Source: Persephonella marina EX-H1
Lineage (GTDB): Bacteria > Aquificota > Aquificia > Aquificales > Hydrogenothermaceae
Length of the DNA: 64,000 bases
NCBI RefSeq assembly: GCF_000021565.1
Contig: NC_012440.1
Coordinates: 1-64,000 of the forward strand
Direction: 5' to 3'
Shown: in pieces, positions 4,996 to 59,505 of the stretch
Layout of the letters: every line of letters starts with the position of its first letter
Numbering within the stretch: the first letter of the stretch is position 1
Position numbers and translations under genes: made by a program
The notes under the pieces: generated by a model
What the model was told of the DNA's origin: nothing
What the model saw: only the letters and a program-made list of their open reading frames with translations
Databases searched by the model: none

Positions 4996-5023
4996 GGGTC
5001 TTCCCTTACTTCAGGTATTTTTT
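4984..5023. terminator. Bidirectional terminator between DUF5335-like gene and ubiD
   Basis: A perfect 9-bp stem AAGTAAGGG / CCCTTACTT with a TCTT loop (4990-5011) is extended by CCTG/CAGG (4984-5015) across a 2-nt bulge. A T-run (5018-5023) follows on the plus strand. Both converging stop codons lie within the stem. Confidence 0.85.
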
Positions 5024-6517
5024 AGCCTTCTTAACTTCCTTATCAATAATACTTTTCATTATCTCCTTCATAACCCTGTTAACAACAGGCTTCATCCTTT
5101 CCTTAACGGACTCATCCATAACAGCAAGCTCAGGCCACTCCCTCTGGTAACCTTCACCTTTCCATTTTGTGGTTGCATCAATACCCATCTTTCCACCAAA
5201 ACCAACAAGATCTGTTGAGTGGTCAAGAACATCTATAACACCTTTTTTAATAACAACATCCCTTGCAGGATCAACATTATTTCCCCATATCCAGAGAACA
5301 TCATCTATACTCTGGACATCAACCCATTCATCAAACACAACTATATTCTTTGTGAACATCATCTGACCCATTCCCCAGAGTGCATCCATAACCTTGTATG
5401 CATGTCCGGGATACTGTTTTTTTATTGATACAAAACAGAAGTTGTGGAAGCATCCTGAAACAGGGAGGTTATAATCAACAACCTCAGGAAGATTGAACTT
5501 TATAAGAGGCAGGAATATCCTCTCTGTTGCCTTTCCCATCCAACCATCTTCCATAGGCGGTCTTCCAACTATCGTTGTCAGGTAAACAGGATCCTTTCTG
5601 TGTGTTACAGCTGTAACATGCATCATAGGATACTTCTCAACAGGTGTGTAAAAACCTGTGTGGTCTCCAAAAGGTCCCTCATCAACAAGAGGCTCTTCAG
5701 GATCTATATAACCTTCAATAATAATCTCAGCATCTGCAGGAACTTCAAGATCAACAGTTTCACACCTCACAAGCTCAACACCTTTACCTCTTATTATTCC
5801 AGCAAAAAGATACTCATCAACATCCTCAGGTAGAGGAGCAGAGGCGACATATGTAAGAACAGGATCTCCACCTATAGCGATAGCTACAGGTATCTTCTGT
5901 CCAAGCTTTTTATACTTCCAGTAATGTTTTGCTCCACCTTTATGTATCTGCCAGTGAACAGCAACTTTATCTCTGTCAAGGATCTGTATCCTGTACATAC
6001 CAACATTTCTCAGACCATTCTCAGGGTCTTTTGAGATCACCTGTGGGAGAGTTATAAACCTTCCCCCATCTTTAGGCCAGCATTTTAAAACAGGTATCTC
6101 AAAAAGATCTATATCATCACCTTTTTTTATGACTTCCTTTACACTGCCTGTTTTTACAGTTTTAGGAAGAGCATCATTCAGTTTCTTAAGTTCAGGTATC
6201 CTTTTAAGCTTATCTAAGAATGTGTGTGGAACTTCAGGTTTCAGTATCCTGTAAAGCTTCCAGCCAATATCTTCAAATCTTTCAACACCAAGTGCCATCT
6301 TCATTCTTTTTTCACTTCCAAAGGCATTTATAAGAACCGGCATATCAGATCCTTCAACATTCTCAAATAAAAGAGCCTTTCCGCCATCAGGCAGCTTCAT
6401 AACATTGTCTGCTATCTCTGTTATCTCAAGGACAGGACTGACCCTGTCTTTTATCCTGATGAGCTCTCCATTTTTATCAAGATCCTTTATAAACTCCCTT
6501 AAATCTCTGTAAGCCAT
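5006..6517 (-). CDS. UbiD-family prenylated-FMN decarboxylase
   Basis: A 503-residue protein of the UbiD/MenG-like non-oxidative decarboxylase family. Visible family segments are MAYRDLREFIKDLDKNGELIRI at the N-terminus, the INAFGSEKRMKMALG region, DEGPFGDHTGFY and the catalytic ExxxR-type region around EGYIDPEEPLVDEGPFGDH. In quinone-making bacteria the usual role is decarboxylation of a 4-hydroxybenzoate- or naphthoate-type intermediate, with UbiX supplying the prenyl-FMN. The aromatic substrate cannot be read from the sequence. A good SD (GAGAGGTAG) precedes the ATG. It is the last gene on the left flank of the replication origin. Confidence 0.9.
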   Translation of the reverse strand: MAYRDLREFIKDLDKNGELIRIKDRVSPVLEITEIADNVMKLPDGGKALLFENVEGSDMPVLINAFGSEKRMKMALGVERFEDIGWKLYRILKPEVPHTFLDKLKRIPELKKLNDALPKTVKTGSVKEVIKKGDDIDLFEIPVLKCWPKDGGRFITLPQVISKDPENGLRNVGMYRIQILDRDKVAVHWQIHKGGAKHYWKYKKLGQKIPVAIAIGGDPVLTYVASAPLPEDVDEYLFAGIIRGKGVELVRCETVDLEVPADAEIIIEGYIDPEEPLVDEGPFGDHTGFYTPVEKYPMMHVTAVTHRKDPVYLTTIVGRPPMEDGWMGKATERIFLPLIKFNLPEVVDYNLPVSGCFHNFCFVSIKKQYPGHAYKVMDALWGMGQMMFTKNIVVFDEWVDVQSIDDVLWIWGNNVDPARDVVIKKGVIDVLDHSTDLVGFGGKMGIDATTKWKGEGYQREWPELAVMDESVKERMKPVVNRVMKEIMKSIIDKEVKKAKKYLK

Positions 6518-6607
6518 AACTACCTCTCAATCTTTTATCTATAAAACTTTATAATACACCAAAAAGTTATCCACATTCCAAAAAGATATCCACAGAGCTA
6601 TCCACAT

Positions 6608-6902
6608 TGTAAGTTATTGATTTTTAAAGATTAATTGAGTTATCCACAGGTGGTTGTGGATAAGTTGTGGATAACTTCCATTTTCCTGTGGATAACTCAG
6701 GTAAAATTGTGGATAACTTGGAAAAAGCTGTGGATAACTCGGCAGGTGTCAAAAAGTTATCCACAGGTTTTCAGCCTTTAATATCAACGTTTTTGCATTT
6801 TTAAGAATCGTAAGTGTTCTAAATAAAGGATTTTTTCATTTTTGAGTTATCCACATACTATCCACAGGTTATCCACATTTTTTTCACGGTGTAAGTTATT
6901 GA
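6608..6902 (+). repeat. 13-bp direct repeat flanking the box array
   Basis: TGTAAGTTATTGA occurs at 6608-6620 and again at 6890-6902, 282 bp apart, just right of a DnaA-box cluster in each case. A partial echo (CGTAAGTG) lies near 6809. The role is unknown; it may be a binding site for an origin regulator. Confidence 0.6.
6655..6737 (-). repeat. Helically phased minus-strand DnaA-box array
   Basis: Five perfect TGTGGATAA boxes start at 6655, 6666, 6687, 6708 and 6729. The spacing is 11, 21, 21 and 21 bp, one and then two helical turns, so all boxes face the same side of the DNA. The flanking plus-strand boxes at 6640 and 6757 point toward the array. Confidence 0.9.
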
Positions 6903-6922
6903 AAAATATAAAAATTTTTGAG

Positions 6923-6962
6923 TTATCCACATATCCACAGCCTATTATTATTTTTATTATCT
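6923..6962 (+). promoter_or_regulatory. Basal origin unwinding module: tandem DnaA boxes plus DnaA-trios
   Basis: A perfect box (6923-6931) overlaps by one base a variant box (6931-6939). A short GC-containing GCC follows, then triplets CTA TTA TTA TTT TTA TTA (6942-6959). On the opposite strand these read 3'-GAT AAT AAT AAA AAT AAT-5', matching the 3'-[G/A]A[T/A]-5' DnaA-trio defined in Bacillus subtilis. The arrangement and polarity are those of the known module, which places strand opening to the right of 6942. Confidence 0.8.
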
Positions 6963-6978
6963 TTTATTCTGATAAAAT

Positions 6979-7012
6979 ATAAAGACAAAAAATAAAGATA
7001 AAGAGATAAAGA
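6979..7012 (+). repeat. Four ATAAAGA repeats at the origin edge
   Basis: ATAAAGA occurs at 6979-6985, 6992-6998, 6998-7004 and 7006-7012, the last running into the ATG of the Wzz-like gene. They form the purine-rich end of the A/T-rich unwinding region and also the 5' leader of that gene; no strong SD is present. Confidence 0.6.
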
Positions 7013-7878
7013 TGGAAAAGGATAAGAATATTCAGAAGCTGGAATCAAAAGATCTATCTGAAAAGGTTGTGTACTATGAGGAAGATGAGATAGACCTTTA
7101 TGAACTCTGGCTTACCTTAAAGAAAAGGTATAAACTGGTTTTATCTGTAACAGTTTTCTTTATATTATTATCAGCAGTTTATCTATTTTTAACAAAGCCT
7201 GTTTACAGGGCAGAATTTATTGTTAAACTTCCCCAGGGATTGACCTCACCGCAGGAGACTAAAAATATTATTGATAATCTTGAAAATCTTAGAAAAGAAA
7301 AACGTTATATGGAACTGTCTAACTTGTTAGGTATATCTCAAGAGAAAATTATGGATATTGACTCATTTTCAGCATCAGAAATTAGAAAGAACAAGAATCT
7401 AATAAAAGTAATACTGGATGTTTATGATCCAAATATTATAAGCAAGCTGAGTGTTTCTATACTTGAGCATCTAAACAATAACAGATTTGTAAAAGAGAGA
7501 ATAGAGATAAGAAAAGAAACTCTAAGATTCTCTATAGAAGAAACAAATGAAAAGATAAAAGAGATAGAATCAATTAAAGATCGTATATTGAATGATCTTA
7601 AAAATGGGAGGATTAAGGATTTAGGTTTTAATCCTGTTGATATGGACAGAACTGTTTTATCTCTTAAAGAGAAGGTCAAAAATCTTGAGAATCAGTTAAA
7701 ACTGTTGAGAGGTTATGAGATAGCTGTGGATCCTGTTGTTCCTGAGAAACCTTCAAAACCAAAGAAGGCTCTGATTCTGGCTGTTGCTTCTGTTTCAGGT
7801 CTGTTCTTGGGAGTTTTTCTTGCATTTTTTGCTGAATGGATTGAGAACGCCAGAAAAAGAAGGGAAGAGATTTTGTAG
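7012..7878 (+). CDS. Wzz/chain-length-determinant family inner-membrane protein
   Basis: A 288-residue protein with the layout of polysaccharide co-polymerases: a cytoplasmic N-terminus with IDLYELWLTLKKRYKLV, a first membrane helix (about residues 45-65), a large coiled-coil periplasmic domain with many Lys/Glu heptads, then a Pro-rich PVVPEKPSKPKK segment and a second membrane helix (about 250-275). Such proteins set the length of exported polysaccharide (O-antigen or capsule). There is no Tyr-kinase domain and no polymerase next to it. The start lies at the edge of oriC and the SD is weak. The gene converges on the Lon-like gene with a shared terminator. Confidence 0.85.
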   Translation: MEKDKNIQKLESKDLSEKVVYYEEDEIDLYELWLTLKKRYKLVLSVTVFFILLSAVYLFLTKPVYRAEFIVKLPQGLTSPQETKNIIDNLENLRKEKRYMELSNLLGISQEKIMDIDSFSASEIRKNKNLIKVILDVYDPNIISKLSVSILEHLNNNRFVKERIEIRKETLRFSIEETNEKIKEIESIKDRILNDLKNGRIKDLGFNPVDMDRTVLSLKEKVKNLENQLKLLRGYEIAVDPVVPEKPSKPKKALILAVASVSGLFLGVFLAFFAEWIENARKRREEIL

Positions 7879-59040: not shown

Positions 59041-59505
59041 ATGACGGAGATAAACGGCAATCTATCGGCTGAAGGACTGAATTTCTGTATTGTTGTTGGA
59101 AGATTTAACGATCTTATAACAAACAAGCTTCTTGAAGGGGCGATAGACTGTATAGTCAGACATGGTGGCTCAGAGGATAATATCACTGTTGTCAGGGTTC
59201 CTGGATCATTTGAGATACCTCTTATAGCTAAAAAGGTGGCAAAGACAGGGAAGTATGATGCTGTAATATGTCTTGGTGCTGTGATAAGGGGATCAACACC
59301 ACATTTTGAGTATGTTGCAGCGGAGGTTACAAAAGGTATAGCCCTCGTTTCACTTGAGACAGAGATACCTGTATCTTACGGCATCCTTACAACAGATACT
59401 ATTGAACAGGCTGTTGAAAGGGCAGGAACAAAGATGGGGAATAAAGGTTTTGATGCTGCACTTTCAGCGATAGAGATGGCCAATCTTATAAAGGAAATCA
59501 GGTAA
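59041..59505 (+). CDS. ribH: 6,7-dimethyl-8-ribityllumazine synthase
   Basis: Penultimate enzyme of riboflavin synthesis; family members form 60-mer capsids in Aquifex. The 154 residues contain [28 protein letters not shown] and [15 protein letters not shown] with the catalytic His. SD AAGGAG. It lies directly upstream of nusB, a very common pairing. No FMN riboswitch is visible in the short upstream gap. Confidence 0.96.

Follow-up and report, generated by a model that had tools for sequence, protein, structure and literature searches.

The question raised by this locus is where replication of the Persephonella marina chromosome begins, and whether an unusually dense cluster of DnaA boxes in a stretch between two genes marks the site. 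The window, that is, the whole stretch of DNA that was analyzed, comprises bases 1-64000 of the 1,930,284-base contig C2 (the whole P. marina genome has 1,983,966 bases). The first-pass annotation of this window had proposed an origin at 6567-6939. Our analysis identified 6567-7001, which includes this interval and the sequence just beyond it, as the predicted chromosomal replication origin (oriC) of P. marina, an assignment that we regard as almost certain. The origin reading of the cluster is supported by a DnaA-trio tract and an unwinding element at the correct spacing, by a layout found throughout the family, and by the position of the minimum of the corrected strand skew. The elements of the locus and its two neighbors are as follows (coordinates are those of the window).

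5006-6517, minus strand: ubiD, left neighbor of the oriC gap
6567-7001, no strand: whole predicted oriC, comprising the DnaA-box cluster and the unwinding element, between the divergent ubiD and wzz
6567, 6640, 6757, 6847, 6869 and 6923, plus strand: exact TTATCCACA boxes (box search)
6655, 6666, 6687, 6708 and 6729, minus strand: exact TTATCCACA boxes (box search)
6586, 6598, 6858 and 6931, plus strand: the four one-mismatch boxes (box search)
6567-6606, plus strand: forward DnaA boxes at the left end, one exact (6567) and two with one mismatch (6586 and 6598)
6610-6622, minus strand: IHF-type site AATCAATAACTTA, exact to WATCAANNNNTTR (consensus match)
6640-6648, plus strand: exact DnaA box facing the reverse-strand array, position kept in relatives
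6655-6737, minus strand: five exact DnaA boxes (6655, 6666, 6687, 6708, 6729) forming the central array
6757-6765, plus strand: exact DnaA box preceding the box-free segment
6782-6794, plus strand: IHF-type site TATCAACGTTTTT, one mismatch to the consensus (consensus match)
6810-6836, plus strand: element GTAAGTGTTCTAAATAAAGGATTTTTT of the box-free segment, conserved in several genera
6847-6877, plus strand: tandem DnaA boxes on the right at 11-bp spacing, exact at 6847 and 6869 and with one mismatch at 6858
6892-6904, minus strand: IHF-type site TTTCAATAACTTA, one mismatch, with an exact TCAATAACTTA core (consensus match)
6923-6939, plus strand: exact box 6923 and one-mismatch box 6931, 8 bp apart, as the DnaA-box pair of the basal unwinding system
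6942-6962, minus strand: DnaA-trio tract, lower strand 3'-GAT AAT AAT AAA AAT AAT AGA-5' (criteria of PMC8287927)
6942-7001, no strand: predicted DNA unwinding element, 88% A+T (nearest-neighbor energies)
7012-7878, plus strand: wzz, right neighbor of the oriC gap

The two flanking genes had been read as a UbiD-family and a Wzz-like gene, and their products indeed match the UbiD (PF01977, E 4e-89) and Wzz (PF02706, E 6e-14) families. Neither is a classical origin gene, which we counted against the oriC reading. The gap itself (6518-7011) had been described as gene-free, in agreement with an ORF search that returned no ORF of at least 80 amino acids within it, and its G+C content is 29%, compared with 37.6% for the window. 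A search of the 64-kb window for parS returned just one site, with three mismatches, at 59,346, which is a chance-level match, and thus no parS-like site. It should be noted that base 1 of the public P. marina record lies only 6.5 kb from the box cluster; this closeness was not counted as evidence, since it may reflect the depositor's choice.

The cluster contains all eleven exact TTATCCACA boxes that had been reported for 6567-6939, lying within 6567-6931 (365 bp), where the chance expectation is 0.77 per 64 kb and none of 100 shuffles of the window reached 11 exact boxes. The four near matches reported alongside them are the one-mismatch boxes listed above. Within the central reverse-strand array, the boxes at 6666, 6687, 6708 and 6729 follow one another at exact 21-bp steps, equal to two helical turns, and a step of 54 bp, kept in relatives, leads from the last of the right tandem boxes (6869) to the box pair at 6923. 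Across the whole genome there are 44 exact boxes, 11 in the cluster and the other 33 scattered, and this genome-wide count revealed no second cluster of exact boxes. The box group that ranks second in density within the sampled DNA (C2:422,460-422,850) was rejected as an origin candidate; it consists of four one-mismatch boxes in about 390 bp, with no exact box. In the box-free segment, the element GTAAGTGTTCTAAATAAAGGATTTTTT is nearly unchanged across several genera; it is not a DnaA box, and it is not a good IHF site either.

The box pair is followed by GC and then by CTATTATTATTTTTATTATCT (6942-6962), the upper strand of the trio tract. This tract begins 10 nt past the exact box at 6923 (spacer 6932-6941), with the GAT trio nearest the DnaA boxes and six consecutive trios carrying a central A (GAT, AAT, AAT, AAA, AAT and AAT). 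The basal unwinding system (BUS) is defined by a DnaA box with at most two mismatches, a spacer of at most 16 nt and at least three trios with a central A (PMC8287927); in P. marina the box at 6923 is exact, the spacer has 10 nt and there are six trios. The spacer length fits the BUS model, as it falls within the reported 10-13 bp peak of box-to-trio spacers (PMC8287927). By nearest-neighbor energies, only one non-overlapping 60-bp window in the 64 kb is less stable than that at 6943. The interval first proposed for the origin was therefore right for the boxes and ended about 60 bp short, with the trio tract and unwinding element lying at 6942-7001. The locus thus combines an intergenic box cluster above chance and unique in the genome with an adjoining A+T-rich, meltable element.

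The single intact DnaA of P. marina, in which the DNA-binding motif (DHST) is conserved, is encoded far from this locus (C2:867.6-868.5 kb, minus strand), about 861 kb clockwise of the cluster or 45% of the way round the chromosome, as expected from the earlier proposal that the origin lies away from dnaA. The finding named in advance as contrary to that proposal, a denser group of boxes beside dnaA, was also looked for, and the 12 kb sampled around the gene held no denser cluster, only three scattered one-mismatch boxes. Origins apart from dnaA are common. Among the relatives, dnaA lies 724 kb (G024), 617 kb (G020) and 46 kb (G003) from the cluster. The first-pass annotation had added that a search by gene context would miss such an origin; this holds for dnaA-based searches and is overstated as a general claim, because methods that use box clusters and strand composition, e.g., Ori-Finder, should find it.

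Strand composition had been suggested as a check, and it gave a divided answer. Over the sampled stretches (under half of the P. marina chromosome and about a quarter of that of the relative G024), raw GC skew was a mosaic with no clear switch and marked no origin. Mosaic skew has been reported for Aquificae, and P. marina showed no significant strand bias in that study (PMC4070872). With coding-strand correction, an initial two-breakpoint fit gave an ambiguous result; the skew was informative only in a detrended cumulative form. In this form, which uses fourfold-degenerate sites only, removes the coding-strand effect and the mean, and accumulates G+T minus A+C (keto), the P. marina skew changes sign and has its minimum at 5,763, inside ubiD and about 1 kb from the cluster center, and its maximum at 902,484. 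For the GC component alone, the minimum is at 1,923,021 and the maximum at 868,169. In block bootstraps, 78% of the minima fell within 25 kb of the cluster, compared with 2.6% by chance. The amplitude of the corrected skew is modest (block-shuffle fraction 0.044 in P. marina and 0.136 in G024). In G024 the corrected minimum and the box cluster are 22 kb apart, with weaker bootstrap support (32% within 25 kb), while the minimum of the GC component alone is about 213 kb away. A strand switch at the predicted origin is thus seen only after coding-strand correction, and the corrected skew is supporting evidence for oriC that is not decisive by itself.

These results bear on whether the cluster might instead be a DnaA-titration or regulatory locus, similar to datA or DARS, with initiation taking place elsewhere. 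Box clusters that lack unwinding elements are generally known to serve such roles in E. coli; the P. marina cluster, however, has a DnaA-trio tract and a melting element, both correctly spaced, is the only one in the genome and coincides with the corrected skew minimum, and no alternative origin candidate was found in the 12 kb sampled near dnaA. We therefore consider a titration or regulatory locus very improbable, and the oriC reading is retained in what follows.

To place the locus in a comparative context, we searched 61 genomes (P. marina and relatives) for box triples and the 41 genomes of the family Hydrogenothermaceae (f1), 23 of them of high quality, from 10 genera, for box pairs. A regular box triple with steps of 17-25 bp was present in 15 of the 61 genomes and never with the reversed-pattern control. 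Box pairs were found in 29 of the 41 Hydrogenothermaceae genomes, 20 of the 23 high-quality ones and all 10 genera (the reversed-pattern control gave one match in all), and among the matches listed they occupied a single locus per genome, the exception being one isolated extra pair in G004. The strings describing box order, orientation and spacing are near identical across several genera (e.g., '>28>90-93>11>11>54>8'); the 21-22 bp spacing of the reverse array recurs in most members of the family, and in most relatives the box after the box-free segment lies 90-93 bp from the one before it. The strict box-plus-trio pattern has a single match in P. marina, located exactly at the cluster, and is found in 16 Hydrogenothermaceae genomes in all, with no control match; with looser spacing, nearly all clusters on contigs that extend far enough have a trio tract after their last box. 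In genera g6, g8 and g9 there are fewer exact boxes, and their versions of the origin are still recognizable. The P. marina cluster is thus conserved in relatives. Two box-plus-trio matches sharing one sequence in the neighboring family f2 were rejected; the one that was read (G043) lies in coding sequence and has no box cluster.

The genes around the cluster behave differently. In other genera its neighbors are SecA and an aminotransferase, a chemoreceptor, an SLBB polysaccharide export protein, a GGDEF protein, a YkuD L,D-transpeptidase or a GATase; wzz, which adjoins the cluster in P. marina, sits elsewhere in the relatives, and tracking the origin through Wzz failed for that reason. The internal sequence order of the origin is therefore kept while the surrounding genes change, and the turnover of neighbors between genera suggests frequent rearrangement at or near the origin. 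Such turnover would also be expected if the cluster were not the chromosomal origin but that of an integrated plasmid or prophage, since plasmid origins have DnaA-box clusters as well and adjacent genes that vary from genus to genus are typical of a mobile element. Against this, the cluster is present in much the same form in all 10 genera, usually once per genome among the matches listed, and coincides with the minimum of the corrected chromosomal skew. Moreover, the neighbors examined are ordinary housekeeping or surface genes, with no replication-initiator, integrase or phage gene among them. We regard an origin of an integrated element as exceedingly improbable, and the cluster as almost certainly that of the chromosome.

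Apart from DnaA boxes, the alignment of these chromosomal origins revealed the motif TAAGTNATTGA adjoining the box arrays. There are two copies in the P. marina oriC (6610 and 6892) and only seven in the whole genome. We rejected a reading of TAAGTNATTGA as a second trio tract, since relatives do not preserve the frame. Its reverse complement, TCAATNACTTA, preceded by an A+T-rich 5' flank, agrees with the IHF consensus WATCAANNNNTTR, which was tried after the motif had been noticed. The 21 origins of the family contain 32 exact WATCAANNNNTTR sites, compared with 1.5 expected from shuffles, a count that overstates independence since the origins are related. P. marina has four HU/IHF-family genes, at C2:644,270, 1,308,315, 1,546,397 and 1,728,585; three of the four proteins score best to IHF beta models, and all fall below the equivalog cut-offs. 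The protein encoded at C2:644,270 has VEIRG where IHF beta of E. coli has IEIRG, and the one at C2:1,308,315 has QISG at the site of the serine of IHF alpha. In the origin of genus g10 (G009:C22, around 13,380), about eight TCAATAACTTA copies are interleaved with eight DnaA boxes, far above the number in other genera.

It is possible, at somewhat less than an even chance, that an IHF-like protein of the HU family bends the origins of Hydrogenothermaceae, at about eight sites in one genus and at two to four otherwise, alongside the DnaA-trio system. An IHF-like function at these origins is a lead and not a demonstration. Another possibility that we take seriously, without favoring it, is that TCAATNACTTA is the site of a lineage-specific origin-binding protein and not an IHF-type site. 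The conservation of TCAATNACTTA exceeds the IHF consensus, since the second half of the N4 gap is also conserved, as A and C; the base ahead of TCAA may be A or T and is not a fixed A; the motif spacing in genus g9 is off by one base; and the HU/IHF matches of P. marina lie below the IHF cut-offs. On the other hand, TCAA-N4-TTA preceded by an A+T-rich flank corresponds to the layout of IHF sites, exact WATCAANNNNTTR sites exceed expectation (32 against 1.5), and P. marina encodes paralogues resembling both IHF beta (VEIRG) and IHF alpha (QISG). Should the IHF-like reading hold, sequence-specific bending of oriC would not be confined to proteobacteria and nitrospirae and would also occur in a deep-branching thermophile phylum.

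Comparison with known systems shows that the P. marina origin shares parts with several of them. As in the BUS of Bacillus subtilis (DnaA-boxes 6/7 plus DnaA-trios), a close box pair and a short G+C spacer lead through trios of the 3'-GAT-5' type into an A+T-rich element (PMC8287927). Unlike in B. subtilis, the P. marina oriC is away from dnaA and is one continuous locus rather than two lobes around dnaA, the boxes of the pair are 8 bp apart and overlap by one base, and the distal trios are mostly AAT and not GAT. Similarly to the oriC of Escherichia coli, it is apart from dnaA and has arrays in both orientations with an IHF-type site inside an array (PMC10316083). The differences from E. coli, which we draw in part from general knowledge, are that the P. 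marina boxes are nearly all perfect 9-mers where E. coli has mainly weak sites, that the reverse array is phased at 21 bp, that there are up to three IHF-type sites, and that dnaA, nearby in E. coli, is almost half a chromosome away. In Thermotoga maritima, another deep-branching thermophile, a DnaA-box region likewise flanks an A+T-rich unwinding element (PMC10316083); that origin has five boxes and a two-module unwinding element, whereas P. marina has 15 boxes (TTATCCACA or one mismatch) and a trio tract.

Our literature search found no paper describing an origin of Aquificota experimentally, nor any on a Persephonella origin, and the P. marina site is probably already in origin databases as a predicted origin. 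The strand composition of Aquificota is too mosaic for easy origin prediction, and the locus provides a well-defined, family-conserved origin with a DnaA-trio tract, a melting element and IHF-type sites that is testable with heat-stable proteins. Aquificota, through Aquifex aeolicus, are a source of reference structures for DnaA. The oriC itself is of known type and the IHF-like part is a new lead; in addition, the P. marina-type origin shows that internal sequence can be conserved where the gene neighborhood is not.

From the computed elements, spacing, conservation and skew minimum, we infer the following course of protein binding, unwinding and helicase loading, with an IHF-like role in it. 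DnaA would fill the exact boxes first, that is, the 21-bp-phased central reverse array and the flanking forward boxes, some of them in 11-bp tandem. A protein of the HU/IHF family may bend the DNA at up to three IHF-type sites (6610, 6782 and 6892), probably folding the box arrays together. ATP-DnaA would then assemble from the pair 6923/6931 onto the lower-strand trios at 6942-6962 and stretch that strand, so that the A+T-rich stretch 6942-7001 would open and the replicative helicase could be loaded there. A helicase loader of the DnaC/DnaI type is plausible, since a domesticated loader gene has been reported in Aquificae (PMC5109545). As a separate observation, the second P. marina contig (G000:C1, 53.7 kb, presumably a plasmid) carries a weak DnaA-family AAA+ match (29 bits) at 6507-6932, which is possibly a helicase loader of the DnaC/IstB type.
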